34,468 nt of DNA from Anaerolineales bacterium (GTDB taxonomy: Bacteria; Chloroflexota; Anaerolineae; Anaerolineales; Villigracilaceae), in the NCBI GenBank assembly GCA_014860805.1, contig JACZJB010000245.1:1-34468 (forward strand). Direction: 5' to 3'. Every line of letters begins with the position of its first letter. Within the stretch, counting starts at the first letter, position 1. Positions 24 to 14,264 of this stretch are shown in pieces. The notes under the pieces were generated by a model. It had not been told where the DNA came from. It saw nothing but the letters and a program-made list of their open reading frames with translations, and searched no databases. The position numbers were made by a program, and so were the translations under genes.

Positions 24-686
24 ATGTTGCAAAATCCCCCGCTTGGTCACCCCGTTACTCAGGAAGAAATAACCCCTCATACAAAGAAGCAGGGGGGGAG
101 CCTGGTTTCTGAGCAAGTGGGAAAAAAAATGAGAGAGATACGAAAGTCGCGCAGGTTGTCCATTCGCGCCCTGGCAGAATTGAGCGGGTTAAGCGTGAAT
201 ACCCTCAGCCTTATTGAAAACGGAAAGACATCGCCCAGTGTCAGCACCTTGCAACAGCTTGCGCAAAGTTTGAATCTCCCTATTGTTGCTTTCTTCGAAG
301 GTAACCCGCCTCAGAACAAAGTTGTTTACCAAAAATCGGGTGAACGGCAGCAGATCGTATTTTCGCAAGGGCACATGGAAAAACTAAATACTGGCATGCC
401 TTCCACTGGATACGAACCTCTTATTACGAGGCTAGAGATTGGGGCGAATAGTGGGGAGATTCCAGTCACCTACCCTGGACGTGAATTTATTTACTGCCTG
501 GAAGGACACATTACTTATTTTATCGGGAATGATGTTTATCCGCTTGCGCCCGGCGACAGCTTGATCTTCGATGCACACGTACCGCACATTTGGCGCAATA
601 CTGCCAGCATGGAGTCCAGTGCTTTGCTGGTGATTTGCCCTGAGCCTGTGCTGAACAACCGTTTTGAACAATATCAGATGCCGTAA
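24..686 (+). CDS. XRE-family regulator with C-terminal cupin domain
   Basis: A 220-residue transcription factor. Residues about 31-91 form a Cro/C1-type helix-turn-helix: the segment with RALAELSGLSVNTLSLIENGK is the recognition helix region, followed by SPSVSTLQQLAQSL. Residues about 135-210 form a small cupin barrel, with PGREFIYCLEG and LAPGDSLIFDAHVPHIW as the two cupin motifs. Proteins of this architecture usually bind a small metabolite in the cupin and regulate neighbouring metabolic genes. The first 30 residues are an unstructured lead. I chose the ATG at 24 because GAAGG lies 8 nt upstream. An internal ATG at residue 36 would cut into the HTH. It lies 29 nt before the first cytochrome gene on the same strand and may regulate the respiratory locus, but the sequence shows no ligand. 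Confidence 0.9.
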   Translation: MLQNPPLGHPVTQEEITPHTKKQGGSLVSEQVGKKMREIRKSRRLSIRALAELSGLSVNTLSLIENGKTSPSVSTLQQLAQSLNLPIVAFFEGNPPQNKVVYQKSGERQQIVFSQGHMEKLNTGMPSTGYEPLITRLEIGANSGEIPVTYPGREFIYCLEGHITYFIGNDVYPLAPGDSLIFDAHVPHIWRNTASMESSALLVICPEPVLNNRFEQYQMP

Positions 687-715: not shown

Positions 716-1255
716 ATGTTATCCAAACACTCTTGCTGGACCGTTTTACTGACTGTTGCTTTTCTCGCAGTGGCATTTTGGGGTTTGCCCCAACCAACAG
801 AAGTTCACGCTGCAAGACCAAACTCTTTCACCGTGGACAACTCCTGCCTATCCTGCCATGAGGATCTTTACCAACTACATGATACTGGCTGTTGGTATTG
901 CATGACAGAACCTCACAAAGACCGTTGTGTGGATTGTCACGAGGGCAATCCATCTGCGTTCAAGGAAGGGGAAGCTCATGTTGCACTGTTAATACATCCA
1001 CAGGAGAACGATGGCGCGAAATGCCTGGAGTGCCACACTCCCGAAGAGTCTCAAGCGCTCATGGCGAAGTTTGAAGCAAATCAGGGGTTTGACATAGTCA
1101 TTAGGCCCGAACCTTATACCCCTTCACCCTTTGCAAAAACTGGTTTCCCCGTTACAGCTGAGGCAAATCCGATCATCGAAAACTTGGGCTGGTTGGCGTT
1201 TGCCACTTTAATGTTCGGAGTATGGCTGATGCTGGTTCTAAGGTCGAACAGATAA
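716..1255 (+). CDS. Triheme c-type cytochrome, C-terminally membrane anchored
   Basis: A 179-residue exported electron carrier. It has an N-terminal signal peptide (hydrophobic residues about 8-24, likely cleavage after EVHA), three CXXCH haem-binding motifs (CLSCH, CVDCH, CLECH), and a C-terminal transmembrane helix in the last 25 residues ending in basic LRSNR. The haem domain should face the outside. Between the first two haem sites there is an extra CWYCM pair followed by a distant His (TEPH). It is not a canonical haem site and may be a fourth degenerate site or a redox disulfide. It is probably an electron carrier for the downstream molybdoenzyme or bc-like module. No specific family name was recognised. 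Confidence 0.85.
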   Translation: MLSKHSCWTVLLTVAFLAVAFWGLPQPTEVHAARPNSFTVDNSCLSCHEDLYQLHDTGCWYCMTEPHKDRCVDCHEGNPSAFKEGEAHVALLIHPQENDGAKCLECHTPEESQALMAKFEANQGFDIVIRPEPYTPSPFAKTGFPVTAEANPIIENLGWLAFATLMFGVWLMLVLRSNR

Positions 1256-1424
1256 ATACAACACACTATTTTGTGTGTATTTGCGTAATTAATGAAAAAT
1301 TTAACATTTTTAGTTACAAAACACACAATTAATATGACAGACCTCACTACCTCATCCTCCGCCGACTCACTAGAATGCACGTATATGTCCATTCAGCCAT
1401 GCGAATATAAGTAAGAAAGAAGCT
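1256..1424. promoter_or_regulatory. Intergenic region with paired TTGTGTGT motifs, likely ArsR operator/promoter
   Basis: This AT-rich 169-nt gap separates the first cytochrome from the ArsR gene. ACACAC (1261-1266) and GTGTGT (1273-1278) form an inverted repeat with a 6-nt spacer. A second copy, AAAACACACAATT (about 1318-1330), lies about 55 nt further on. Read on opposite strands, the two share TTGTGTGT. The position directly upstream of an ArsR-type repressor suggests autoregulation. No clear -35/-10 pair could be fixed. Confidence 0.45.
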
Positions 1425-1763
1425 ATGCAAATCAATTCCCTAAAATTGGAAATATCCCAGTTGCAAGCCGACATGTGTTCGGCCTTCACAGACCCAACGC
1501 GGATTCTGATCCTATATGTATTGCACGAAACGCCCCGTAATGTGACGGAACTCGCGAATTTGATCGGCATCCCCCAACCCACCGCCTCGCGTCACTTGAA
1601 AGTTCTGCGCGATCATGGGTTGGTACAAACCACTCGCACCGGGACCACGATCACATATTCATTGGTGGATGAAAGATTAATCCAATCTCTTGAGATTTTA
1701 CGAGTAGTCCTGCACGACACTCTGACATTAAAAGCCAATATGATGCTTGAGCCAAATCCTTAA
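1425..1763 (+). CDS. ArsR/SmtB-family winged-helix repressor
   Basis: A 112-residue protein matching the usual size of ArsR repressors. Residues about 18-90 hold the winged helix: ALxDPTR-like AFTDPTRILILYVL, the recognition helix IPQPTASRHLKVLRDHGLV, then the wing TTRTGTTITYSL. The metal-box ELCVCDL motif is absent, and the only cysteine is Cys18. It therefore cannot be a classical arsenite/cadmium sensor, and it also lacks the cysteine pair used by sulfide-responsive SqrR/BigR-type members. It lies between two triheme cytochrome genes, so it probably controls the sulfur/Mo respiratory genes that follow. The upstream SD is weak (AAGAAAG). Confidence 0.88.
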   Translation: MQINSLKLEISQLQADMCSAFTDPTRILILYVLHETPRNVTELANLIGIPQPTASRHLKVLRDHGLVQTTRTGTTITYSLVDERLIQSLEILRVVLHDTLTLKANMMLEPNP

Positions 1764-1799
1764 TTTGATATTTCTCTCAAAATCTCTGAGGAGAACAAT

Positions 1800-2621
1800 A
1801 TGCAACAAAAGAATAAAGCGTTTTTTTTGATGTTTGCTGGACTAGCTCTCGTGATTGCATCCAGCATTTTTTTGATGACGGCAACACCTGTTAGCGCGCA
1901 ATGTGGTTCGCAGGCTTCGTCCTGCAAGAACTGTCATGAGGTGCAGGCAGAGATGCCCGTCAATGCCGATGGGACGGGGTGGCACCAGTCTCATGCATTC
2001 GGCGATTTCTGCTACATCTGTCACGCGGGCAACAACCAGGCGACGGATAAAGCCGCCGCACACGAAGGAATGGTTGCTCCGCTTGATGACGTACAAGCCG
2101 CGTGCCAGCAATGCCACGTGGCGGATCTGGATGCGCGCGCAAAGGTTTACGCGGATATTCTCGGCGTAACCGTCGGCTCGGGGACTTCGGCTCCTGCCGC
2201 GGCGGGGTCTGAGGCGCCAACTGTCAGTGTGGATTCCGCTGCGAGCGTTCCTTCATCCAATCAATGCAACGAGGTTGTGGTGGACGATCCCAACACCATT
2301 GACTATGCCGCCAATTACGAAGAGATTGTGCTCGGCAAAACGCCGACCAACTGGGGCAACATGATTTTGATGGGCATGATCGGTTTAATGCTGGTGGGCG
2401 GCGGTGGATTTGTTGTGACTCGCGAGAAATTCATCAACGTGAAATTTGGCGATACCAAGGCTATGGATGCTGAGTATCCTGCCGATGTGGTCGAAATGCT
2501 GCCGAAGATCGCTTCGTTGAAAGCAGACACACGTAAGTCTTTGAAGAACGTTTTGGACAACAAAAAAGCGGACAAGGTTCTCGACCTGATGGACGCCGTG
2601 ACAAAAAAGGATGAGGAGTAA
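1800..2621 (+). CDS. Triheme c-type cytochrome with central membrane helix
   Basis: A 273-residue protein. It has a signal peptide (FFLMFAGLALVIASSIFLM, likely cleavage after VSA), followed by three CXXCH sites (CKNCH, CYICH, CQQCH) in the first 120 residues. Extra histidines (HQSHAF, AAHEG) suit bis-His ligation. Residues about 125-160 are an Ala/Ser/Pro-rich linker. A transmembrane helix at about 187-206 (MILMGMIGLMLVGGGGFVV) is followed by a charged cytoplasmic tail rich in Lys and Asp. The start is fixed by GAGGAG before the ATG. It is 3 nt upstream of the YeeE pair, so it is co-translated with sulfur transport. It likely carries electrons to or from the molybdoenzyme. Confidence 0.85.
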   Translation: MQQKNKAFFLMFAGLALVIASSIFLMTATPVSAQCGSQASSCKNCHEVQAEMPVNADGTGWHQSHAFGDFCYICHAGNNQATDKAAAHEGMVAPLDDVQAACQQCHVADLDARAKVYADILGVTVGSGTSAPAAAGSEAPTVSVDSAASVPSSNQCNEVVVDDPNTIDYAANYEEIVLGKTPTNWGNMILMGMIGLMLVGGGGFVVTREKFINVKFGDTKAMDAEYPADVVEMLPKIASLKADTRKSLKNVLDNKKADKVLDLMDAVTKKDEE

Positions 2622-2624
2622 GCC

Positions 2625-3170
2625 ATGAAATTCATTCTGAATTACATTCGCAAGGATGAGTGGTCGCCATACGTGGCGGGAGTGCTGCTAGGACTGGTGG
2701 GCATTGCCGCTGTTTGGGCAAGCAATAGCCTGCTCGGTGCCTCTGGCGCGTTTGAAAACATTGCAGGCATGATTGGAAAAGCGGTTGCCCCTGCGGTGTT
2801 TGACAATATGTACTTTAACTTCATCATGCCGCCGGGTATCACGGTTGGCGTCATGTTGGTGATTGGGATATTTTTCGGCGGCATGATCGGTGCGGCTACA
2901 AGCGGCACACTCAAATGGGGCAAGAAAGACTCTGCCAATTCAGACGAACAATGGAAACGTATCTTCGGCGCACAGACTTGGAAGCGCTGGCTGATTGCCT
3001 TCTTCGGCGCGATCGTGCTCGAATACGCAGCAGGCATTGCAGGCGGTTGCACCAGCGGACTCGCCATCTCAGGTGGTATGTTGCTGGCTCCGGCGGCGTT
3101 CCTGTTCATTGCAGGCATGTTCGTGGGCGGTATTCCCACTGCCTTGTTGATCTACGGCAAACGCTTCTAG
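2625..3170 (+). CDS. YeeE/YedE-family sulfur-compound permease, first half
   Basis: A 181-residue integral membrane protein with about four to five helices. The signature GGCTSGLAISGG (residues 140-151) carries Cys142, the type of conserved cysteine that in YeeE/TsuA proteins passes thiosulfate through the membrane. Here the fold is split over two genes, and this one supplies one half. GAGGAG precedes the ATG and overlaps the end of the cytochrome gene. A soluble loop at residues about 95-118 separates the helices. It may instead move another sulfur species such as sulfide or a persulfide. No TusA-like partner was seen in the window. Confidence 0.85.
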   Translation: MKFILNYIRKDEWSPYVAGVLLGLVGIAAVWASNSLLGASGAFENIAGMIGKAVAPAVFDNMYFNFIMPPGITVGVMLVIGIFFGGMIGAATSGTLKWGKKDSANSDEQWKRIFGAQTWKRWLIAFFGAIVLEYAAGIAGGCTSGLAISGGMLLAPAAFLFIAGMFVGGIPTALLIYGKRF

Positions 3171-3179
3171 GAGGCTGAC

Positions 3180-3734
3180 ATGACGAACTTTATCATCGCT
3201 TTGGCGCTGGGTGTGTTCTTTGGGTTTTCGCTCAACAAAGCTGGCTTAACAAAATACAACAAGATCATCAACGTCTATCGTTTTACCGATATGACCGTTT
3301 TGAAGTTCATGATGACCGCATTGGTGGTTTCCATGAGCGGACTGTACGCATTGCGAGGGCTGGGCCTTATCACCTTCCCGAATGTGCCTGCCACGTATAT
3401 CGTCGGCAATCTCGTGGGTGGAATCATCTTCGGCTTCGGCATGGCTCTCAGTGGATATTGCCCTGGCACGGCAGCAGCAGGTGCAGGCGAAGGCAAATTA
3501 GATTACCTCATCCCTGGTTTGTTCGGCTTTTTAGTTGGCGCGGTAATCTATGGCTTGACTTATGACAAAGTGTTCCCCGCGATCTCTGCCATTGCTAATT
3601 ATGGCAATACAACCATGCCAGACCTGTGGAACTTGAGTCCATTCCTTACGATTCTGACTTTTGCGCTGATGTCGCTGTTGTTGTTCTACTTGATCGACCG
3701 TGTGGGCTGGCAACGGAAGGGCAGTGAGCAGTAA
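3180..3734 (+). CDS. YeeE/YedE-family permease, second half (DUF6691 type)
   Basis: A 184-residue membrane protein with about five helices. The motif ALSGYCPGTAAAGAGEGK (residues 89-106) places Cys94 at the end of a half-helix, mirroring Cys142 of the preceding protein. The N-terminal SLNKAGLTKYNKIINVYRFTDMT is typical of the second member of split YeeE pairs. GGAGG lies 5 nt before the ATG at 3180. The gap to the upstream stop is 9 nt, so the two should be made together and form one transporter. The last residues run into an inverted repeat that begins at 3729. Confidence 0.86.
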   Translation: MTNFIIALALGVFFGFSLNKAGLTKYNKIINVYRFTDMTVLKFMMTALVVSMSGLYALRGLGLITFPNVPATYIVGNLVGGIIFGFGMALSGYCPGTAAAGAGEGKLDYLIPGLFGFLVGAVIYGLTYDKVFPAISAIANYGNTTMPDLWNLSPFLTILTFALMSLLLFYLIDRVGWQRKGSEQ

Positions 3735-3769
3735 TCAGTGGAAAACTGGTTTCTGGTAACTGATTACTG
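3729..3769. repeat. 11-bp inverted repeat between the permease and molybdoenzyme genes
   Basis: CAGTAATCAGT (3729-3739) and ACTGATTACTG (3759-3769) are perfect reverse complements around a 19-nt loop. The left arm overlaps the last codons of the upstream gene. There is no T-tract, so it is not a standard terminator. It could be an mRNA-stability or attenuation hairpin, or a copy of a dispersed repeat of the CAGT/ACTG type also seen at 14653-14678. Confidence 0.75.
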
Positions 3770-3785
3770 AGCACTGGAGTTCTCT

Positions 3786-5969
3786 ATGACAAAAACGATC
3801 TCAAGAAGAGATTTTCTAAAAATAAGCGCGGCAGGAGCGGGAGCGCTGGCTCTCGGTCAAATGCTGCCCGCAAAGGTGGCGCAGGCAGCACGTGCGGCGG
3901 GACACATCAACGCGGAAGGCGATGGATTCGTCCATAGCATGTGCGAGATGTGTGTGTGGCGTTGCGGCTTGATCGCCAAAGTCGTGGATGGTCGCGTTGT
4001 CAAACTGGATGGCAATCCCGAGCACCCACATTCACGCGGCAACCTGTGTCCGCGCGGGCAATCAGGCTTGATGAACACCTACGATCCCGACCGTGTGTTG
4101 ACTCCTCTTATCAGAGTAGGGAAACGCGGCGAAGGCAAATTCCGTCAGGCTTCGTGGGAAGAGGCGCTGGATCTGGTCGCCAGCAAGATGACTGAGATCA
4201 AGAACAAGTACGGCGCAGAAGCGATGGTTTTTTCGTCCACGCATAATTTGAGCCAGCCTTTATTCGAGAATTTATTGTACGCATTTGGTTCGCCGAACTA
4301 CGGCACGCAACGCTCGCTGTGTTTCAACGCCATGATCGTCGCCAACACGATGACCTACGGCATGGAAGAACCTGGGCGCATCTACGACGACAAACTCAAA
4401 TACATTTTGTTGACGGGACGCAATCTACTCGAGGCGATTTCAACTTCTGAAACACATGACTTGATCACCGCGATTGACCGCGGCGCGAAGGTGGTCTATC
4501 TCGACCCGCGCTACACAAAGACCGCTTCAAAAGCGACCGAGTGGCTGCCCATCAAACCCGGAAATGATCTAGCCTTTCATTTGGCTTTGCTCAACATCAT
4601 CATCGGTGAAAAGTTATACAACCGCTCCTTTGTTGAAAAGAATACCATCGGCTTTGATGAACTGAAAAAAGAAGTTGCGCGCTACACCCCCGAATGGGCA
4701 TCTCCTTTAACTGGAATCCCCGCTGAAACCATCACGCGCATCGCACACGAATTTGCAGACGCCGCTCCTCATGCACTCGCTCACAACGGCTGGCGCACCT
4801 CCAACTTCGTAAATTCATTCCACACCCAACGCGCCATCACCATCTTGAATGCACTGATGGGTAACTGGGGCGTGGTGCTAACCGAAGCGGGCAGCGAAGA
4901 AAGCGGCGCATTGGGCGCTCCCCCACAACCTGCCTACCCGCGCATCTCTGCCTTGCGTCTTGATGGCGTGCCGTGGAAATATCCCGTTGTGCCGTTCAAG
5001 ATCGGCGTGTTTCAGGAACTGCGCGACAATATTGTTAAGGGTGATCCCTATAACGCGCATGGCTGGTTCATCTCGCGCCAGAATCCGATTCAATCCCTGC
5101 CTGATCGCGGCAAGACCATCGAAGCCTTTGGCAAATTGGATTTTATCGTCACCGTGGACATCGTCCTCAACGATACCGCATGGTTCTCCGATGTTGTTCT
5201 GCCTGAAGCTTCCTATCTCGAACGCTATGACCCGCTTCTGCCTGTTGGCGATAAAGTTTTCCTGCGCCAGCCAGTGATCGAACCGCAGGGCGAAGCCAAA
5301 TCTGCTTTGTGGATTTACAAGCAGCTTGGCGAACGCCTCGGACTCGGCGACTACTTCCAATACGAAGATGAAGAAGATTACATCCGCCAGCAACTCAAGC
5401 CGCTTGGCGTTACGCTGGAAGATGTCAAAGCGAAAGGGTATGCTGAAGCACCCGAAGCAGCTCACGGCGGAGAAAGCGGCGAACTCACTTGGAACACTCC
5501 AAGTGGAAAGATCGAGTTATTCTCCGATACGCTTGCCAAAGTTGGCTTCTCTGGCGTCCCCACATGGGATGAACCACCCCAACCTGCTGAAGGTCAATTC
5601 TTCCTGTTGACAGGCAAGATCGCAACATCCACCCAGTTTGGGACTCAGAACAATCAACTGCTTCACAAATATTCAGAAGAACCGCGTATGTGGATGAACG
5701 CTCAAACCGCTGCCGAGCTTGGTCTGGCTACCGACGACTGGGTCGAAGTCACAAGCGAGGTTGGGCAGATCCACACGCAATTGCTGGCAACGCAGGCCAT
5801 CCGCCCCGACTGCGTTTATATGACCCCTGGCTACGGACATCTTTCCAAAGGTCTGAAAACAGCGTACGGCGTTGGCGCGAGCGACTCCGCTGTCCATGTG
5901 ACCTACACCGACCCCATCAGCGGCGGGCAGGCATTGAGCCAGACTTTTGTCACGGTCAAAAAGGCGTAG
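3786..5969 (+). CDS. Molybdopterin oxidoreductase, thiosulfate/polysulfide reductase-like catalytic subunit
   Basis: A 727-residue DMSO-reductase-superfamily enzyme. The Tat signal SRRDFLKISAAGAGALALG (residues 6-24) sends the folded protein outside the membrane. Cys53, Cys56, Cys60 and Cys88 bind the first [4Fe-4S] cluster (CX2CX3CX27C). Cys179 in QRSLCFNA sits where PsrA/PhsA proteins have the Mo-ligating cysteine. The C-terminal dinucleotide-binding domain (YMTPGYGHLSKG near residue 680) is complete, and the length fits PhsA/PsrA. It should reduce a sulfur compound (thiosulfate, polysulfide or tetrathionate) with electrons from the following B and C subunits; oxidation in reverse is also possible. 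The upstream YeeE pair supports a sulfur substrate. Related arsenate or selenate enzymes cannot be excluded without phylogeny. Confidence 0.88.
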   Translation: MTKTISRRDFLKISAAGAGALALGQMLPAKVAQAARAAGHINAEGDGFVHSMCEMCVWRCGLIAKVVDGRVVKLDGNPEHPHSRGNLCPRGQSGLMNTYDPDRVLTPLIRVGKRGEGKFRQASWEEALDLVASKMTEIKNKYGAEAMVFSSTHNLSQPLFENLLYAFGSPNYGTQRSLCFNAMIVANTMTYGMEEPGRIYDDKLKYILLTGRNLLEAISTSETHDLITAIDRGAKVVYLDPRYTKTASKATEWLPIKPGNDLAFHLALLNIIIGEKLYNRSFVEKNTIGFDELKKEVARYTPEWASPLTGIPAETITRIAHEFADAAPHALAHNGWRTSNFVNSFHTQRAITILNALMGNWGVVLTEAGSEESGALGAPPQPAYPRISALRLDGVPWKYPVVPFKIGVFQELRDNIVKGDPYNAHGWFISRQNPIQSLPDRGKTIEAFGKLDFIVTVDIVLNDTAWFSDVVLPEASYLERYDPLLPVGDKVFLRQPVIEPQGEAKSALWIYKQLGERLGLGDYFQYEDEEDYIRQQLKPLGVTLEDVKAKGYAEAPEAAHGGESGELTWNTPSGKIELFSDTLAKVGFSGVPTWDEPPQPAEGQFFLLTGKIATSTQFGTQNNQLLHKYSEEPRMWMNAQTAAELGLATDDWVEVTSEVGQIHTQLLATQAIRPDCVYMTPGYGHLSKGLKTAYGVGASDSAVHVTYTDPISGGQALSQTFVTVKKA

Positions 5970-5978
5970 AGGTATATC

Positions 5979-6749
5979 ATGACTGAAATCAAACATCACG
6001 CGTATCTCTTTGACGCCACTCGCTGCATTGACTGCCGTGCCTGCATGGTCGCATGCAGCGTGGAAAACAACATCGACATGGATAAGACCCGCATCTGGGT
6101 GGCTGGGCTTGGTATCACAGGTACGTTTCCAGATCTGCAACGCGGCACGATGGTCTATCACTGCATGCACTGCGAACACCCAGACTGCATGTCAGCCTGC
6201 CCTGTCGGCGCGTACACAAAAGCCGAAGATGGTCCTGTCACGTACAATCCCGATCTATGCATCGGCTGCCGTTATTGCATGAACGCCTGTCCATTTGGCG
6301 TGCCGCACTTCGACTATGACAAGGGTATCATCGACGGCGCGTTCATCGACAAATGCACCTTCTGTCCGCAGCGCATCTACAACGGACAGGAACCCGCCTG
6401 CGTGCAGACCTGCCCCACCGACGCGCTCGAGTATGGTGACCGTGACGAACTGATCGCGAAGGCACATGAACGCATCGCCGCACATCCCGATAAATATATT
6501 CAGCATGTGTATGGTGAACATGAAAATGGCGGCACATCCTACCTGATCATTTCACATGTTCCGTTTGCAGATTTGGGCTTGCCCGATCTTCCCGAAACAC
6601 CTGTCAACGAAGTCAGTGAAAAGGTGATGGCAATGACCATTCCGTTCGCGCTCAGTTGGGGAGCAGTCTTGAGCGGGGTTGCAGCTGGTGTCAACCTGTA
6701 CAACAAAAATAAGGAAGAAGCCGAGAAGAAGGCGGAGGAAACCAAATGA
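5979..6749 (+). CDS. Four-cluster ferredoxin subunit (PsrB/PhsB/DmsB type)
   Basis: A 256-residue electron-transfer subunit. Four cysteine groups that bind [4Fe-4S] clusters can be read: CIDCRACMVAC (Cys16-Cys26), CMHCEHPDCMSACP, CIGCRYCMNACP, and CTFCPQR with CVQTCP. It passes electrons between the NrfD membrane subunit and the molybdenum site. Unlike short PsrB proteins it carries a C-terminal hydrophobic stretch (MTIPFALSWGAVLSGVAAGVNLY) followed by a charged tail, which may anchor it. AGAGGT precedes the start. The gene lies 9 nt after the catalytic subunit, and its stop overlaps the next start (ATGA at 6746). Confidence 0.92.
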   Translation: MTEIKHHAYLFDATRCIDCRACMVACSVENNIDMDKTRIWVAGLGITGTFPDLQRGTMVYHCMHCEHPDCMSACPVGAYTKAEDGPVTYNPDLCIGCRYCMNACPFGVPHFDYDKGIIDGAFIDKCTFCPQRIYNGQEPACVQTCPTDALEYGDRDELIAKAHERIAAHPDKYIQHVYGEHENGGTSYLIISHVPFADLGLPDLPETPVNEVSEKVMAMTIPFALSWGAVLSGVAAGVNLYNKNKEEAEKKAEETK

Positions 6750-7933
6750 AACTAGACATTACGCTTCCAAAATTCCTTCGCATCGGCATTCTGCCTTCTG
6801 TTCTGATTGCGCTCATGGGCATTGCCTTCGTCACCGCCATGGCGCGTTACGCCTTCGGCATCGGCGCCATCAGTGACTTGAGCTATTCCTATCCCTGGGG
6901 ATTCTGGATCAGCTTCGACCTGTTCACAGGCGTGGTTATCAGCAGCGGCGGTTTTCTCATGGCAGGCCTGGTCTACATTCTGGGTATCAAGGAATTCCAA
7001 CCGCTTCTGCGCCCGTCTGTCCTCACGGCCTTCCTCGGCTACATCATGGTCGCCATCGCCCTGCTCGTTGACCTTGGTCAACCACTGCGAATCTGGTACA
7101 TGATGATCCACTGGAATCACACCAGCGTCCTGCTTGAGATCGGCATCTGTGTGATGTTATATCTCACTGTACTTGCCATTGAGTTTGCGCCCGTGGTGCT
7201 GGAGAGTTTCCCCAAACTGCACAATATCGCCCACCTTATTCACAAATTCATTATGCCCTTTGTAATTCTCGGCGTAGTGCTTTCAACCCTGCACCAATCT
7301 TCCCTCGGCTCACTTCTGCTCATCCAGCCGACCAAACTGCACCCACTCTGGTGGACGCCCATCCTACCGATCATGTTCTTTACTTCAGCCATCTCTGTTG
7401 GCATGGCAATGATCATCCTTGAGTCGTCGCTCAGCTCGCGTTACTTCCAACGCGGTCTTGAAACTCACTTGTTGGAAAAAATTGCCAAAGGTCTGCCGAT
7501 TGCGCTCGGCGTTTACGCCTTGCTAAAATTTGGCGAACTCGCTGTAGCGGGTGAACTCGACCTGCTCTTCACCAGCGGCATCATGAGCGTGCTCTTCTGG
7601 GCAGAAATACTCATTGGCGTGGTCACTCCCATCGTCTGGTTCTCCATCCAAAAGAATCGCACCAGCAACAACGCTTTACTCACAGGCGCGATCATCGTCC
7701 TCGTTGGCATGATCCTCAACCGATTCAACGTCAGCTGGTTCGCTGTCAAGCACCCCGATCCGCTTTTCTACATGCCAACCTTCATGGGCAACGTGGATTA
7801 CTTCCCCACCTTCCCAGAAGTCGCCGTCTCCATTGGCATCTTCGCCGCGGGCATCATGGCATTCGGATTGATCGCCAAATACTTCCCCGTCTTCGAGGAT
7901 GAACTTCCCGCAGCAGCCCATGCAGGCGATTAA
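6746..7933 (+). CDS. NrfD/PsrC-family membrane quinone subunit
   Basis: A 395-residue polytopic membrane protein with about ten helices, the length typical of NrfD/PsrC. The N-terminal helix is followed by SYSYPWGFWISFDLFTGV, the family's hallmark region near the quinone site, then by regular hydrophobic segments to GIFAAGIMAFGLIAKYFP. It takes electrons from menaquinol, or delivers them to it, for the A and B subunits. It overlaps the ferredoxin gene by 4 nt, so the three genes encode one complex. A 192-nt gap with a strong hairpin follows. Confidence 0.92.
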   Translation: MKLDITLPKFLRIGILPSVLIALMGIAFVTAMARYAFGIGAISDLSYSYPWGFWISFDLFTGVVISSGGFLMAGLVYILGIKEFQPLLRPSVLTAFLGYIMVAIALLVDLGQPLRIWYMMIHWNHTSVLLEIGICVMLYLTVLAIEFAPVVLESFPKLHNIAHLIHKFIMPFVILGVVLSTLHQSSLGSLLLIQPTKLHPLWWTPILPIMFFTSAISVGMAMIILESSLSSRYFQRGLETHLLEKIAKGLPIALGVYALLKFGELAVAGELDLLFTSGIMSVLFWAEILIGVVTPIVWFSIQKNRTSNNALLTGAIIVLVGMILNRFNVSWFAVKHPDPLFYMPTFMGNVDYFPTFPEVAVSIGIFAAGIMAFGLIAKYFPVFEDELPAAAHAGD

Positions 7934-8040
7934 GGTCACCGCCTCTTTCTGACGTGAAGTCTGATTCTGCTCAACAAGCAGTTGCCTGCCTTCAACATGC
8001 GAGGGGCAACATCCATCAAAAGTTAAGCCGACATTCTCCA

Positions 8041-8082
8041 GCATCTCTGCCCATGATTTGGGCAATCCATGGGCAGAGATGC
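8041..8082. promoter_or_regulatory. Perfect 15-bp inverted repeat upstream of cytochrome b
   Basis: GCATCTCTGCCCATG (8041-8055) pairs exactly with CATGGGCAGAGATGC (8068-8082) around a 12-nt loop. It is followed by GAAAAATCCC rather than a T-run, so it may be a regulatory or mRNA-processing hairpin or an operator rather than a simple terminator. It divides the Psr-type module from the bc-like module. Confidence 0.7.
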
Positions 8083-8092
8083 GAAAAATCCC

Positions 8093-8125
8093 TTAGCGTG
8101 AAGTGATATTATTTGTAGAATTCCC
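8093..8125 (+). promoter_or_regulatory. Possible promoter for cytochrome b, leaderless start
   Basis: TAGAAT (8116-8121) resembles a -10 box, and a poor TTAGCG (8093-8098) stands at -35 spacing. There is no Shine-Dalgarno before the ATG at 8126, and the -10 would place transcription start at or beside the ATG. This is inferred and weak. Confidence 0.3.
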
Positions 8126-9169
8126 ATGCGCCCTTCTTTTTTTCATCACCTCCATCCCCCAACAATTCCAACTGCACAAGCAAGATGGCGGCACACCTTA
8201 GCCGCAGGCGGGACAGCCATCTTCCTCATGCTCATTCTCGGCGTGACGGGTATTCTGGAGATGTTCTACTACATTCCAAACCCAGAAGAAGCCGCGCTCT
8301 CGGTTCAAACCATCACCTACCTCGTTCCTTTCGGCGGATTCATCCGTAACTTGCATTACTGGTCGGCACAACTTTTATTGATCGTTTCGGCAATTCATCT
8401 TTTGCGCGTCGTTTTCACCGCAGCTTACAGCCACCCGCGCCGATTCAACTATCTGCTTGGGCTGACTCTCTTTGTCATTGTCATTCTCCTTGATTTCACA
8501 GGCTACATCCTGCGCTGGGATGTGGACATTTGCTATCCATTGTTGACAGGCACAAACCTGCTCAAAACCATCCCGCTCATCGGCGATGCCCTTCACCGCA
8601 TCGCCATCGGCGGAGGCGATGCATGTACCTCTGGCTTGCTGCGCATGTATGTCTGGCATATCTTCGGCTTGACATTGCCCGTCATCATCCTCGGCGTGTG
8701 GCACGCCTTTCGCGTTCGCCGTGATGGAGGCATCGCCGTCCCGCCGCCGCAAGTACGCACAGATAACGCCCGTATTTCCCGCAACGAACTCGTCCGCCGC
8801 GAAGTGTTGGCGATGTTCGTCATTGGTATTGCGCTCATTCTCTTGTCGAGCTTTGCACCAGCTCCGATTGCGCCTGCCATGCCAACCACACCTGCGGCAA
8901 TTGGCGCAGCCGCTTCACAATCTGCAAGAGCACCCTGGTTCTTCCTGTGGGTTCAACAAATGCTGAAATGGGGTGATCCGTTTATTTTTGGGATTGTCAT
9001 CCCGATTGGTATTCTTGTCCTCGTTGCCCTCATCCCCTACATCTTCCCAAAACCCGCAGACTCTGACATCGGCACATGGTTCCCAAAATCCAACCGCTTC
9101 GCGCAAATCACAATTGGATTGGTGTCTTTTATCGTTATTCTATTAACCTTACTCGCCAATGCAAAATAA
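8126..9169 (+). CDS. Cytochrome b of a bc1/b6f-like quinol complex
   Basis: A 347-residue diheme membrane protein. His77 and His91 (NLHYWSAQ...SAIHLLR) and His178 and His193 (VWHIFG...GVWHAFR) are the four axial ligands of the two b haems, spaced 14 and 15 residues apart as expected. A shortened C-terminal part carries APWFFLW (from about residue 269), standing where subunit IV-type proteins have the Qo-site PW(Y/F)FLW. The protein is therefore an N-terminal cytochrome b fused to part of the C-terminal domain. It should oxidise menaquinol and work with the Rieske protein two genes downstream. The C-terminal 11 nt overlap the next gene. Confidence 0.9.
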   Translation: MRPSFFHHLHPPTIPTAQARWRHTLAAGGTAIFLMLILGVTGILEMFYYIPNPEEAALSVQTITYLVPFGGFIRNLHYWSAQLLLIVSAIHLLRVVFTAAYSHPRRFNYLLGLTLFVIVILLDFTGYILRWDVDICYPLLTGTNLLKTIPLIGDALHRIAIGGGDACTSGLLRMYVWHIFGLTLPVIILGVWHAFRVRRDGGIAVPPPQVRTDNARISRNELVRREVLAMFVIGIALILLSSFAPAPIAPAMPTTPAAIGAAASQSARAPWFFLWVQQMLKWGDPFIFGIVIPIGILVLVALIPYIFPKPADSDIGTWFPKSNRFAQITIGLVSFIVILLTLLANAK

Positions 9170-10388
9170 ACCCACCACTTTCCACTTTCTACTTTTGATT
9201 GCGTCGGGGCTTCTTCTCGCAGCGCTTTCCTTTCTATGGTGGAACGACTCACGCCAACCCGCTCCCATCTCCCTCACCCCAACACTCTCTGGCGAAACCG
9301 AATACTGCCTCACCTGCCACGTGGACCTGCCCGAGATTAGCGCATCACATCCTGCGGACACATTCGGTTGCGTCAGTTGTCACGGCGGCGAAAGACTCGC
9401 GCTCAACGCGGACCTGGCGCACAGCACCATGCGCGGCGGAGCGAATCCATCCGACTTCAGCGTAGTCGAAGCCTCGTGTGGCGGAAGCAACTGTCACAGT
9501 GGCAGCGAAGCGGATGATCGTCATCACATTCAGCGTGTGATGACCAGCGTTCAATCCACCTATGCGGGCGCGATTGCCAGTATCCGCTATACCTTTGGCG
9601 CGCAGACAGACCTCAATGCGCATTTCGGCATCCAAGCAGTGATCGATGAACAATCCAAGACGGGAATTTCATCTCTCGAGACATTCAACCCTGTCGATGA
9701 AGCCCATCCGTCCATCCAAAAGTTCGGCGAGGAATGCCTGAGCTGTCATCTTCATGCAGAACCGCGCGAAGGGGAAGCCTATGCGCGTGAGACCGGTTGT
9801 GCGGCATGCCACTCGACTAAAAAACATACGCTCACAACCGCCATACCTTATACCCAATGTAACGCGTGTCATAACCGTGGTAATTATGATTTGCGGACGA
9901 TGACCTTCGTCGAGCGCACAGACCACCCCACGCAACGCATTGATGATTACTATCAACCCATCGCGCAGTTCACCCAATGCGAATACACCCTCGACTGTGT
10001 GGATTGCCATACCCGCTCTGAAGTGATGGGCGATGGCGACATTCACAACGATCAAGCATCCATTGAGTATGTGCAATGCAAAACTTGTCATGGAACGCTG
10101 GAAGAACTTCCGCTTACCAAAACGCTGACTGACCCCAATGACATTGCCTTCACGCTTGCCTTCCTCAACCCCATTAAGGATCTGAAGCTCGGCGACACCA
10201 TCATCGTCACCGAAAAAGGCGAGCCGCTTTGGAACACAAAAGTTTTACCTGATGGAACCTATGAAATGATCGGCAAAGCAACCAATCAATATTTCACTTT
10301 CCGCCCTGTAATGGGAACCGCCTGTGAACAAAAGCCTGATGAGCAGGAATCCCATTACTGCCATGAATGTCACGCAGTGGAAAAATAA
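9159..10388 (+). CDS. Nine-haem c-type cytochrome
   Basis: A 409-residue exported multihaem protein with an uncleaved N-terminal signal anchor (residues 8-27). Haem sites are CLTCH, CVSCH, CGGSNCH (an expanded CX4CH site), CLSCH, CAACH, CNACH, CVDCH, CKTCH and CHECH, making nine. It takes the place of a cytochrome c1 in this quinol complex, between cytochrome b and the Rieske gene. It probably passes electrons onwards to the triheme cytochromes or the molybdoenzyme. The CX4CH motif is rare and may need a special haem lyase. The start overlaps cytochrome b by 11 nt and has no visible SD, which points to translational coupling. The first codons are built from a pyrimidine-rich TTTCCACTTTCTACTTT run. 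Confidence 0.88.
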   Translation: MQNKPTTFHFLLLIASGLLLAALSFLWWNDSRQPAPISLTPTLSGETEYCLTCHVDLPEISASHPADTFGCVSCHGGERLALNADLAHSTMRGGANPSDFSVVEASCGGSNCHSGSEADDRHHIQRVMTSVQSTYAGAIASIRYTFGAQTDLNAHFGIQAVIDEQSKTGISSLETFNPVDEAHPSIQKFGEECLSCHLHAEPREGEAYARETGCAACHSTKKHTLTTAIPYTQCNACHNRGNYDLRTMTFVERTDHPTQRIDDYYQPIAQFTQCEYTLDCVDCHTRSEVMGDGDIHNDQASIEYVQCKTCHGTLEELPLTKTLTDPNDIAFTLAFLNPIKDLKLGDTIIVTEKGEPLWNTKVLPDGTYEMIGKATNQYFTFRPVMGTACEQKPDEQESHYCHECHAVEK

Positions 10389-10389
10389 G

Positions 10390-10806
10390 ATGACTGATCT
10401 TTCCCGCCGCGATTTCCTCAAACTCATCCGCAATGGTTTTCTTTACCTCAGCGGCGTGCTAGTCACTGGCGGTTTGCTTCGCTTTCTTTCCTATGAATCC
10501 GAGCCCAAGCGCAAAACAGAATTTGACATTGGCTCCGCGGACAATTACCCCCTCGGCTCGCGCACATCCATACCAGAGATCCCCGCGCTTCTCATCCACA
10601 CTGAAAGCGGATACACCGCCCTAAGCCTGACCTGCACCCATCTCGGCTGCACTCTTGAACCCAACGAAACTGGCTTTGCATGTCCCTGCCACAATTCCAG
10701 TTTTGATGAAGCAGGGAATGTAATACATGGTCCCGCCGTGAAACCTTTGCAGGTTTTGCGCATCGAAATAACAGATGATGGAAATATAAAAGTATTTACC
10801 GCTTGA
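10390..10806 (+). CDS. Rieske [2Fe-2S] protein of the bc-like complex
   Basis: A 138-residue iron-sulfur protein. The start at 10390 is preferred over an in-frame ATG at 10324 because it puts the Tat motif SRRDFLKL at residues 5-12 and follows the previous stop by 1 nt. A single transmembrane anchor (residues 16-33) is followed by a Rieske fold: Cys82-Thr-His84-Leu-Gly-Cys87 and Cys98-Pro-Cys100-His101. Cys82, His84, Cys98 and His101 bind the cluster. Cys87 and Cys100 form the usual disulfide. The protein is short but complete. With cytochrome b it bifurcates electrons from menaquinol. Confidence 0.93.
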   Translation: MTDLSRRDFLKLIRNGFLYLSGVLVTGGLLRFLSYESEPKRKTEFDIGSADNYPLGSRTSIPEIPALLIHTESGYTALSLTCTHLGCTLEPNETGFACPCHNSSFDEAGNVIHGPAVKPLQVLRIEITDDGNIKVFTA

Positions 10807-10817
10807 AGGATATCTCC

Positions 10818-11429
10818 ATGAACCTTGTCCAAATCCTTGAAAAATCCATGCAAGACCATGACCACCTTTGTCCGCGCCAGATACTTGGCGCACGGATTGG
10901 TATGGCTGGGATGAAAGCGCTTAATTTCACTGAGCCCCCGAAAAGGAAAGAGTTGCTCATCATCTCTGAGACGGATGGCTGTTTTGTAGATGGAGTCATT
11001 GCTGCCACAGGCTGCACCGTCGGTCACAGAACACTGCGAGTGGAAGATTACGGCAAGGTCGCTGCGACCTTTGTGGATACGAAGACGGGAAAAACCATCC
11101 GCGTTGCCCCTGCATTGGATATCCGCGAGCGGGCCTATCGATATGCTCCCAACGAACCGCGTCATTACTTTGTCCAAATGCAGGCATATCAGACCATGCC
11201 AGACGAAGAGATGTTCACTTTCATTGAAATAGAACTTGTCACGTCAGTGGAAAAGATCGTATCGAGACCTGGTGTGCGGGTTTGTTGTGATATTTGTGGG
11301 GAGGAAATTATGAACGAGCGGGAAGTAAAACATGAAGGACTTACGCTTTGTCGGGCATGTTCTTCTCCGGCGTACTATCAGGTTTCAGCTTCAGAAATAA
11401 GTTACCAAATACAGCAGGCATTCTATTAA
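10818..11429 (+). CDS. FmdE-family protein with C-terminal zinc ribbon
   Basis: A 203-residue soluble protein. The N-terminal domain is of the FmdE type (formylmethanofuran dehydrogenase subunit E family): HDHLCPRQ at residues 14-21, then DGCFVDGV and TGCTVGH (Cys55, Cys66, His70). The C-terminus holds a zinc ribbon with Cys157/Cys160 and Cys178/Cys181. AAGGA 7 nt before the ATG at 10818 favours that start over the TTG at 10803, which overlaps the Rieske stop. FmdE-type proteins outside methanogens often sit beside molybdenum enzymes and may aid cofactor or metal handling. It closes the respiratory gene set. No reaction can be assigned. Confidence 0.85.
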   Translation: MNLVQILEKSMQDHDHLCPRQILGARIGMAGMKALNFTEPPKRKELLIISETDGCFVDGVIAATGCTVGHRTLRVEDYGKVAATFVDTKTGKTIRVAPALDIRERAYRYAPNEPRHYFVQMQAYQTMPDEEMFTFIEIELVTSVEKIVSRPGVRVCCDICGEEIMNEREVKHEGLTLCRACSSPAYYQVSASEISYQIQQAFY

Positions 11430-11500
11430 GTTGGAATTGTTACAAGCGCGTGCAAGCCGTAAGAGATATTCAACATCAACGCTTCTCACAAGGTGCTGAT

Positions 11501-11539
11501 AGTAAAAAGCAGCAGAGATAAGCTCTGCTGCTTTTTACT
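11501..11539. terminator. Bidirectional Rho-independent terminator
   Basis: AGTAAAAAGCAGCAGAG (11501-11517) pairs perfectly with CTCTGCTGCTTTTTACT (11523-11539) around a 5-nt loop. The A/T arms provide T-runs on both strands. It ends the + strand respiratory transcript and the convergent - strand sugar transcript. Confidence 0.93.
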
Positions 11540-11576
11540 TCAGATCAATTTCCTTCTCCCCAGCAAATATTAAGGG

Positions 11577-12851
11577 TTATTTCCCTCTTAAAGATTGAGC
11601 CGCTTTATTCAACTCTTCAGCATTCTTCTGGATCTTCTTGATCGCCGCAACGGCATCGTCCACACCTTTTGTCCCTGCACGGAAGATGGCTTCATCCAGC
11701 CAGACCGCTTCGTGTTCGCAGGCACGGGTGGCTTCAGGCAGGTCCATCTTCTTGAAATCGAAATATTGCGGGAAGGCATTCGGTACCGCAAGTTTCGACT
11801 TCTGCGGCTGGAACAGTTCATAGTTGTGCATGGCTTCGTAGCCAGTCCAGCAATCAATACCTTCGGCATCCAAGGCGCCGCATAAGACATCATGCTCCAC
11901 ACCGAAGGTAGCGGGGTCAATGGCAAAGATGTAACGATAGAACGAGCGTGTGGTGTGACGCTCATCCCGTTTCAACACGCGCACACCTTGGATCTCGCTC
12001 AAGGCTTCGTCCATGTATGCCGCCATCTCTTCGCGTTGTTTTGCCTGCCCAGGGAAGCGTTCAATGCCGGCCAGAGCTATTGCTGCCTGCAACTCGCTTA
12101 AACGGAAATTCCCGCCCTGCACAGCCAGCCCATTGGCGTAATCTTCGCCGCCACCGCCCAAGGCATGTGGCCTTCCGCAGTCGATGATTGAAGCTGCCAG
12201 CGCGGCATGCTCCGCCGACTTGCACAGCAAGATCCCGCCTTCACCCGAAGTCAGCGTCTTCGACGACTGCAATGAGAACGATCCGAAGTGACCGATTGTC
12301 CCTGCGCCCATGCCGCGCCACTTTGCGCCGTGCGCATGAGCGCAGTCTTCGATGACGATCAGGTTATGTTTCTCCGCCAGCGCCATGATGGCATCCATGT
12401 CTGCCATGTTCGAGCCGAGGTGGACCGGGATGATGGCTTTCGTCTTCGACGTGATGGCTTTCTCTGCCGCTTTCACATCAAGGCAATAGGTATTCGGGTC
12501 AACATCAACGATGACGGGAATCGCTCCTGCTCCCATTGGGGCGGATGCCGTTGCCTGAAACGTATATGCAGGGACAATGACTTCGTCGCCCCAGCCGATA
12601 CCCGCCGCGCGTAACGCCACTTCCATGGTGATCGTTCCATTCGTCATTGGCACAGCATAGCCGCCGCCCTGCAACTCGGCAAATTTCTTCGCCAGTTCTG
12701 CTGTCTTCGGTCCGGGGTATGGATACCCACCCCAGCGCCCGGATTTGATCACTTCCGTCACAGCATCAAGATCGCGTTGATCCCACACAGGCCATTGTGG
12801 ATATGGTTCAGTTCGGGTTTTGCTTCCGCCTAAGATTGCTAATTCAGACAT
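11577..12851 (-). CDS. DegT/DnrJ/EryC1/StrS-family PLP aminotransferase
   Basis: A 424-residue sugar or cyclitol aminotransferase. Lys198 in SSKTLTSGEGG is the PLP-binding lysine, Asp169 in IVIEDCAHAHG contacts the PLP ring nitrogen, and NGTITMEVALRAAGIGWGDEV near residue 71 starts the usual DegT fold. AAGGAG sits 6 nt before the start at 12851. A longer frame (to 12944) adds 31 residues (FNRKSEIQNRTS) that come from a dispersed repeat and are rejected. It is the last gene of the long - strand set. The nearest known types act on keto-sugars or inosose, so it probably makes or breaks an amino sugar or aminocyclitol in this pathway. Confidence 0.9.
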   Translation of the reverse strand: MSELAILGGSKTRTEPYPQWPVWDQRDLDAVTEVIKSGRWGGYPYPGPKTAELAKKFAELQGGGYAVPMTNGTITMEVALRAAGIGWGDEVIVPAYTFQATASAPMGAGAIPVIVDVDPNTYCLDVKAAEKAITSKTKAIIPVHLGSNMADMDAIMALAEKHNLIVIEDCAHAHGAKWRGMGAGTIGHFGSFSLQSSKTLTSGEGGILLCKSAEHAALAASIIDCGRPHALGGGGEDYANGLAVQGGNFRLSELQAAIALAGIERFPGQAKQREEMAAYMDEALSEIQGVRVLKRDERHTTRSFYRYIFAIDPATFGVEHDVLCGALDAEGIDCWTGYEAMHNYELFQPQKSKLAVPNAFPQYFDFKKMDLPEATRACEHEAVWLDEAIFRAGTKGVDDAVAAIKKIQKNAEELNKAAQSLRGK

Positions 12852-14229: not shown

Positions 14230-14264
14230 TGCGAGGAGCCGTCCTTTGGCGACGAAGCAATGAC
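14225..14264. repeat. Copy of the GTCATTGC dispersed palindromic repeat at the ATGA junction
   Basis: GTCATTGC (14225-14232) and GCAATGAC (14257-14264) bound the repeat. The same ends and inner GACGAAGCAAT-type arm occur in the longer copy at 34043-34119. It encodes the last 12 residues of the hydrolase (from Val388), its TGA stop, and the overlapping ATG of the GH4 gene. Confidence 0.8.

Follow-up and report, generated by a model that had tools for sequence, protein, structure and literature searches.

The stretch of DNA analysed here (the window; 34,468 nucleotides) is contig JACZJB010000245.1 (C79) of the Anaerolineales bacterium assembly GCA_014860805.1, a genome of 4.2 Mb that is 96.8% complete. 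Positions 716-11429 hold a set of genes, all on the + strand, that we refer to as the cassette. It joins the molybdoenzyme MolyA and its two partner subunits, a cytochrome b, a Rieske protein and the multihaem cytochrome MHC9, two triheme cytochromes (MHC1 and MHC2), and the split permease YeeA-YeeB, whose YeeB half appears to carry a selenocysteine (Sec) in many relatives. These genes had been named from the DNA letters before any database was searched (the sequence-only reading), and our Pfam and NCBIfam scans found every one of them in the order first noted, with two refinements: the iron-sulfur (FeS) and membrane subunits of the molybdoenzyme resemble HmcB/HybA and HmcC/HybB, and the Rieske reading frame used starts at 10390. 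The count of nine haems in MHC9 was right, and the two small cytochromes carry three CxxCH motifs each.

The molybdoenzyme and cytochrome modules

MolyA (3786..5969, +) is a PhsA/PsrA-type protein with a twin-arginine translocation (Tat) signal and the Pfam domains Molybdop_Fe4S4, Molybdopterin and Molydop_binding. Its best NCBIfam model is the thiosulfate reductase PhsA equivalog NF012032 (598 bits, below the cut-off of 694). The best match in the Protein Data Bank (PDB) is Thermus PsrA (2vpw, E = 5e-140), in which Cys173, aligned with Cys179 of MolyA, is presumably the Mo ligand. The sequence-only reading had proposed placing the enzyme in a phylogeny, and it fell within the PhsA/PsrA (sulfur) family as a separate clade. 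In this quick IQ-TREE phylogeny of 52 rows, 22 Chloroflexota rows together with L110 and L111 formed a clade of 24 rows (SH-aLRT 99). The clade sits inside a larger group of 29 rows (support 90), the internal branching of which is not settled; its other members are Salmonella PhsA, together with a Desulfosporosinus row, and a Desulfarculaceae/Desulfovibrionaceae/Campylobacteraceae group. Thermus PsrA, two genomes of the order whose MolyA matches are 38-39% identical, and Bacteroidota rows lie on the other side of the tree, the deep order of which is unsure because the outgroup did not form one clade and long branches were flagged. Judged by this kinship, the MolyA clade is predicted to be of the sulfur type. 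Searching plasmids with MolyA returned matches below 60% identity only, the best annotated of which was PhsA at 33-34%.

The FeS subunit (5979..6749, +) matches Pfam Fer4_11 and other Fer4 families, and the quinone-reactive membrane subunit (6746..7933, +) matches Pfam NrfD. Both score best with the NCBIfam models for HmcB/HybA and HmcC/HybB, respectively, well above those for NrfC/DmsB and the NrfD equivalog.

Downstream lie the genes of the cytochrome module. The cytochrome b (8126..9169, +) resembles a fusion of ExtP and ExtQ and has the Qo motif APWF in place of PEWY. MHC9 (9159..10388, +) is ExtM-like (NF040943, E = 1e-34), and the Rieske protein (10390..10806, +), identified with Pfam, carries the motifs CTHLGC and CPCHNSSF. 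Cytochrome b, Rieske and multihaem genes thus stand together as in the Geobacter ext module, with scores below the family cut-offs (ExtP, 191.7 against 290 bits; ExtQ, 42.5 against 150; ExtM, 119.6 against 800). Measured against the cytochrome bc complexes, the module has a cytochrome b with a Rieske protein and lacks both a c1 or f subunit and the PEWY motif. The nine haem motifs of MHC9, eight CxxCH and one CX4CH, are invariant in 24 orthologues. Outside these motifs, three histidines are shared by the full set of 24, another two by 23 and 22 of them, and Met290 again by every one; because so few such histidines are conserved, several of the haems may lack a histidine as distal ligand. A phmmer search of MHC9 against the PDB gave weak matches only (best E = 0.079), and a plasmid search with MHC9 gave no match.

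We assessed conservation of this arrangement in 201 sampled genomes of the order, our own included; 23 had a MolyA match at E <= 1e-100. Identity was 64-100% in 21 of these and 38-39% in G010 and G037. A sample of 400 genomes of the phylum yielded 12 matches. Nine (72-100%) came from the same order, two (39%) from the same class, and the last was 37% identical. We then read the neighbourhoods of the 21 genomes by hidden Markov model search. Cytochrome b and MHC9 follow MolyABC (MolyA and its two partner subunits) directly in 17 of the 21, which bears out the conserved order that the sequence-only reading had suggested looking for. The two modules are apart in three (G003, G142 and G196), and in G002 a contig end interrupts the set, while another contig begins with an FdnI-type subunit, cytochrome b and MHC9. 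The Rieske gene comes next in 15 of the 17 linked genomes; none was found in G153, and the contig ends in G189. YeeA and YeeB lie upstream in 19 of 20 judgeable genomes, both being missing from G189. Because this gene order is kept in many genomes, chance association is very unlikely, and we conclude that the genes form a conserved Anaerolineales cassette with separable modules.

The membrane subunit is of the NrfD type in 14 of the 21 genomes and an FdnI-type cytochrome b in seven, one of which was scanned (L074) and matched TIGR01583, formate dehydrogenase gamma. MolyA, MHC2, cytochrome b and MHC9 stay in place despite this swap. The quinone-reactive anchor can therefore be exchanged, a point against any fixed complex founded on the NrfD subunit. 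Pairwise distances correlate with those of MolyA at 0.85 for MHC2, 0.72 for MHC9 and 0.66 for cytochrome b. At L105, MHC9 (14201-15502) follows NrfD, and no cytochrome b or Rieske gene was found in the 22-kb locus. Conversely, 11 loci (L082-L092) encode a paralogous cytochrome b of 49-56% identity; MolyA is missing from all of these stretches, and nine have a Rieske gene adjoining.

Other cytochrome b genes were seen in passing. A second set of cytochrome b, Rieske protein and triheme cytochrome is present at L094, which is positions 1-10000 of contig C13 of our own genome, and at L096, the cytochromes b being 35% and 34% identical, respectively. XRE-cupin regulators lie near both sets on the opposite strand, and such regulators recur beside these respiratory sets. 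At L099 and L100, cytochrome b is encoded by two genes with a nine-haem-like protein between them, and L100 also has a Rieske gene.

Permease halves and a probable selenocysteine form of YeeB

The permease is encoded upstream of MolyA as two halves in reversed profile order. YeeA (2625..3170, +) matches the C-terminal half of the Sulf_transp profile (172-309, E = 2e-15) and has a conserved Cys in the motif GGCTSG; YeeB (3180..3734, +) matches the N-terminal half (12-150, E = 1e-21), has the conserved Cys94 in GYCPGT, and scores 25.3 bits with DUF6691, just below the cut-off of 27. The pair therefore has the make-up of a split permease, two halves with one conserved Cys apiece. Cys94 of YeeB aligns with position 91 of Spirochaeta TsuA (8j4c), where we take the Cys to be essential. 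YeeA had no match in the PDB at E <= 1 (phmmer). The sequence-only reading had called it unusual to import a sulfur compound while reducing one outside. Permease and molybdoenzyme genes do stand side by side, and the combination is less odd than claimed: according to PMC10812762, the related split pair YedE1E2 imports zero-valent sulfur, with one Cys per half essential, and does not help export.

The triheme cytochrome MHC2 (1800..2621, +), with one membrane helix and a cytoplasmic tail, belongs to the core of the cassette. Its mature start, QCGSQASSCKNCHE, is nearly invariant in the alignment of relatives, where its gene lies directly 5' of YeeA or MolyA. In L070 and L106, which lack YeeA and YeeB, MHC2 also lacks the long cytoplasmic tail. 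Tail and permease may thus tend to occur together, with L110, which has YeeAB and a short-tailed MHC2, as an exception.

In most of the first relatives, YeeB was split into two frames by open reading frame (ORF) calling. The frame break is one TGA, in frame, at precisely the codon that reads TGC for Cys in the window (Cys94; 3459..3461, +). The window itself carries the Cys form of YeeB, and the apparent Sec form occurs in relatives only. In the first set, 17 YeeB genes had TGA and eight, the window included, had TGC. A later sample of 400 genomes, which overlaps the first set and was scored for the kind of stop and not its position, gave 52 YeeB places at 56% identity or more: 34 had one TGA, 18 had no stop, and none had TAA or TAG. 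Among the remoter matches listed (39% or less), G574 had one TAA and G704 had one TGA and one TAG. In the 27 TGA genes in which the codon was read, it always lay at the conserved Cys. Gene decay was considered as the source of the breaks and rejected, given that the 52 close orthologues contain TGA as their only stop, at the conserved Cys in all 27 read, between conserved flanks. Two genomes, G705 and G596, have two and three separate TGA-form YeeB places, respectively.

We searched for a selenocysteine insertion sequence (SECIS) using the criteria of a published bacterial model (PMC13188914). In the first set, 17 of 17 TGA genes and one of eight Cys genes satisfied the model. A held-out set followed, consisting of 19 previously unused genes from 30 loci read (the other 11 were first-set genomes), and here the model fitted 10 of 10 TGA genes and three of nine Cys genes. 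Pooled, this is 27/27 against 4/17 (Fisher P = 5e-8, a value that ignores relatedness). The hairpin has a fixed position, 17-19 nucleotides (nt) after the TGA, and in the first set its loop is GGU, GGUC, GGC or CGGGA; in L111 the stem is kept while the letters differ on both sides. As a control, the same peptides were recoded synonymously 500 times, with codon frequencies drawn from the MolyA genes of these loci. The observed mean best-hairpin score was 21.5, compared with 14.8 after recoding (standard deviation 1.0, maximum 17.9 of 500), and a loop at nt 21-23 with GG was present in 17 of 17 genes, compared with an average of 7.0 and a maximum of 13 of 17. Free-energy z-scores of the 45-nt stretch alone were less telling; they ranged from -0.08 to -3.0 in 16 TGA genes and from -1.19 to 1.26 in eight Cys genes. 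Rfam gave no match at the gathering threshold in 20 loci, so the case for a SECIS rests on the published model and the controls.

The machinery for Sec is also encoded. SelA scored above its cut-off in all 14 TGA genomes tested, and a strong tRNA-Sec (at least 64 bits) was found in 12 of them, the exceptions being G014 and G196; the next tRNA-Sec matches in all genomes were tRNA-Ser-like and below 50 bits. SelA was above cut-off in 38 of 41 genomes overall. Sec genes are as common without a TGA gene as with one, and the machinery thus shows ability rather than correlation. One Cys-form genome that keeps the hairpin, G101 (82% complete), had no SelA match and a tRNA-Sec match of only 47.1 bits, just above the family's 47 and within the tRNA-Ser-like range. 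A relic of a Sec gene would be expected to have this appearance. At least six Sec/Cys changes are required on the MolyA tree, and the residue in the ancestor of the clade was probably Sec, replaced later by Cys several times, as in the window. Collectively, these results suggest that the conserved Cys of YeeB is encoded as Sec in many relatives.

Recurrence, neighbouring genes and known systems

From a wider scan of genome contigs we took the best 80 of a larger number of loci; they are 3.3 to 22 kb long, so that absences partly reflect contig ends. Ten of them, at 54-93% identity, include three contigs of the genomes above; YeeB is present in nine and YeeA in eight, and L106 has neither. Two of the more distant loci lie outside the order, L110 (labelled only "bacterium") and L111 ("Bacillota"). 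Another 23 loci are 32-39% identical (L113-L133, L136 and L149). YeeA and YeeB are both present in 14 of these, and an ExtM/MHC9-like gene in seven (L117-L120, L122, L123 and L132). At 26-31% identity, none of 47 loci has YeeA, YeeB, cytochrome b or MHC9, and a Rieske match occurs in L151 only. A related grouping of PsrABC, split YeeE and ExtM is found in Bacteroidota, and a related grouping also occurs in SAR324. The multihaem neighbour in L117 and L122 has ExtM as its best model (E = 9e-70 and 1e-71, below cut-off), and a rhodanese-like protein is encoded beside YeeB in L117.

Several of these remote loci have features of their own. At L122 (5702-8823), a cytochrome b is fused to an ExtM-like multihaem cytochrome, with a Rieske gene adjoining, divergent from PsrABC-YeeA-YeeB. 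L114 has an MHC2-like triheme protein (11236-11832) and an XRE-cupin regulator near a different molybdoenzyme, itself interrupted by a TGA that is not in a conserved column. The remote molybdoenzymes of L161 and L175 have a TGA at the column of the Mo-ligand Cys and are probably Sec-type formate dehydrogenases.

The remaining genes of the cassette are accessory or regulatory. MHC1 (716..1255, +), a triheme cytochrome with three CxxCH motifs and a C-terminal membrane anchor, is annotated among relatives only in L062, L064, L096, L103 and L112 (the last on the same contig as L064). An ArsR-family regulator (1425..1763, +; Pfam HTH_5) precedes MHC2 in many relatives and keeps one Cys in the 14 aligned. 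An FmdE-domain protein (10803..11429, +; E = 9e-32) has a zinc-ribbon-like tail, with zf-dskA_traR just below cut-off, and lies downstream on the same strand in five of the 17 linked genomes. Upstream of the cassette is an XRE-cupin regulator (24..686, +; Pfam HTH_3 and Cupin_2), found in this position in only some relatives (L062, L064, L096 and L103). The - strand genes at 11577-34020 have no visible link to the cassette. Mostly by eye, they appear to serve the import and degradation of sugars (ABC transporter, glycosidases, LacI-type regulator, kinase and sugar dehydrogenases), accompanied by a DegT family protein (Pfam) and a cation efflux protein.

Several characterised or predicted systems resemble parts of the cassette. 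PhsABC and PsrABC (Salmonella PhsA; Thermus PsrABC, 2vpw) likewise have a Tat-exported catalytic subunit with an aligned Mo-ligand Cys, an FeS subunit and a quinone-reactive membrane subunit, whereas here MolyA forms its own clade, the B and C subunits are HybA/HybB-like, and a permease and a cytochrome module belong to the set. The Geobacter ext cluster (extHIJKLMNOPQS) has a homologous cytochrome b, membrane partner and multihaem cytochrome, and a Rieske protein is present; in the cassette, the cytochrome has nine haems and not twelve, ExtP and ExtQ are fused, and a molybdoenzyme and a permease adjoin. Cytochrome bc1 and b6f share the Rieske protein and cytochrome b, but the cassette has a nine-haem protein instead of a c1 or f gene, and its Qo motif APWF lacks the Glu. 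The split permeases YedE1-YedE2 and PmpA-PmpB, along with TsuA, have the two Sulf_transp halves with one conserved Cys each; linkage to a molybdoenzyme, and TGA for Cys in many YeeB orthologues, set the present pair apart. A predicted Sec-containing YeeE/YedE family protein with the motif GUxSG (WP_012471001.1) is already in print (PMC13188914 and PMC9312934). It belongs to the same Pfam family, while here the gene is split and the motif is GYUPGT or GFUPGT (GTUPGT in L111). Since GUxSG is compatible with a site of the YeeA type (GCTSG) as well as with the surroundings of TsuA position 91 (GCASG), we claim only a different local motif. The consulted part of PMC12142623 deals with one Desulfurivibrio, in which Psr is considered alongside rhodanese-like sulfur transferases and YeeE/YedE proteins, a gene set other than the present one. 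As the sequence-only reading supposed, no described system with the same order was found in open-licence PMC text. Within that text, and as far as our searches go, a predicted Sec in that half of a split permease which has the GYUPGT motif, the hairpin, the many Sec/Cys pairs and the cassette setting are new.

Proposed working of the cassette and its alternatives

From the observed gene content, gene order, subunit swap and TGA and SECIS evidence, we infer a substrate, a direction, and partners for MHC9 and MHC2. Three units would share the menaquinone pool and the extracytoplasmic space. MolyABC would transfer electrons between menaquinone and an extracellular inorganic sulfur compound; YeeA-YeeB would pass sulfane sulfur, or thiosulfate, inward by a relay over one reactive residue per half; and cytochrome b, Rieske protein and MHC9 would oxidise menaquinol and deliver electrons to c-type carriers. 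The sequence-only reading had noted two quinone-reactive units, and their presence in one conserved locus is supported; they may be the input and the output of the menaquinone pool. The reading that we tentatively favour is that MolyABC feeds electrons from sulfur oxidation into menaquinone, that the Ext-like complex oxidises the menaquinol, and that YeeAB imports sulfur. In net terms, MolyABC would oxidise sulfide or polysulfide, or join sulfite and sulfide, into menaquinone; the Ext-like complex would hand the electrons to an acceptor of higher potential; and the sulfur product would enter via YeeAB. A more nucleophilic Sec at a relay site would be chemically reasonable.

The HybA/HybB and FdnI partners feed quinone in the best-known enzymes, and partners of these types fit electron input without proving it. 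Thiosulfate/(sulfite + sulfide) and polysulfide/sulfide have potentials of about -400 mV and -260 mV, menaquinone about -75 mV, and menaquinol Rieske proteins about +100 mV or more. Several observations count against the oxidative reading. Characterised members of the PhsA/PsrA family are, to our knowledge, reductases. A search of our own genome found no TusA and no NIR_SIR domain. Among the 21 genomes that have MolyA, strong COX1 matches occur in 16, a weak fragment in a further one and none in four, compared with strong matches in 17 of the 20 without it; haem-copper oxidase is thus not enriched with MolyA, and the cassette need not be used aerobically. In three genomes the modules are separate, as noted above, and AlphaFold2 models of MHC9 built from 13 sequences had a mean pLDDT (predicted local distance difference test) of 47.7.

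A rival reading is respiratory reduction of thiosulfate, polysulfide or sulfur, which we regard as somewhat unlikely. The NrfD or FdnI-type subunit would then oxidise menaquinol and MolyA would reduce its substrate outside, with cytochrome b-Rieske-MHC9 as a separate branch to another acceptor and YeeAB recovering sulfur for biosynthesis. MolyA does group with PhsA and PsrA in the tree, its best NCBIfam model is PhsA, and an FdnI-type subunit is consistent with a PhsC-like arrangement, Salmonella PhsC carrying the annotation cytochrome B subunit. With no NIR_SIR in the genome, sulfide and sulfur may be needed for assimilation, but the domain is as rare without MolyA (three of 20 genomes) as with it (three of 21), and reduction gives no reason for 17 of 21 genomes to retain a quinol-oxidising module in the set. 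We consider the direction of sulfur oxidation somewhat more likely than that of reduction, and no more. That the whole cassette works as one unit, in which a Sec-dependent permease half takes sulfane sulfur from extracytoplasmic MolyA, perhaps through MHC2 with its invariant cysteines and its cytoplasmic tail next to the permease, and the Ext-like complex with the nine-haem cytochrome conserves energy by a Q cycle, seems rather unlikely; it would amount to an undescribed Anaerolineales sulfur respiration with an unreported permease Sec site. Selenite, tellurite or another high-potential chalcogen is a distinctly unlikely substrate. In this reading an Ext-like module is combined with a PsrA-like reductase and a selenium-linked permease. 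The cytochrome b, MHC9 and multihaem relatives match Geobacter ext-cluster models, the ext cluster is tied to selenite and tellurite via ExtI (PMC5877670), and gene context ties YedE proteins to selenium use (PMC5322559). However, the mutant described in the consulted part of PMC5877670 is extI and not extM, extO, extP or extQ, the ext scores are under the family cut-offs, Sec in the permease shows only that Sec is used there, and the Cys forms keep the same cassette.

The sequence-only reading had itself offered a supercomplex, or a loop with multihaem wires carrying electrons from the bc-like part to the molybdoenzyme, and we find either improbable. Tight linkage and correlated divergence speak for it, as does MHC9 beside MolyABC without cytochrome b at L105. 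The distance correlations, which are not corrected for the tree, can arise from shared descent too, and an obligate supercomplex does not hold up: the modules are separate in three of 21 genomes, L105 lacks cytochrome b and Rieske protein, and the paralogous cytochrome b of L082-L092 occurs without MolyA. Separation of the modules in related genomes, which the sequence-only reading had named as evidence against its proposal, was accordingly found in part, with linkage prevailing in 17 of 21. A loop is unlikely for polysulfide or thiosulfate, because on the potentials given above the electrons leaving via the Rieske protein and MHC9 are too high in potential to reduce either. Unrelated neighbours brought together by chance or plain vertical descent are very improbable; the modules can separate, but genomes from several families of the order share one gene arrangement, and Bacteroidota and SAR324 have a related one.

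Plain ORF calling cuts the TGA forms into two short frames, and TGA-form YeeB may consequently be under-annotated. The recurring linkage ties together three families of uncertain role: the split YeeE/YedE permeases, the Ext-type Rieske/cytochrome b/multihaem complexes, and a separate clade of the PhsA/PsrA family. The cassette also presents candidate natural Sec/Cys pairs in a membrane transporter; in a characterised relative, the Cys is essential. Comparing the natural Sec and Cys forms would make the passage of zero-valent sulfur across the membrane testable.

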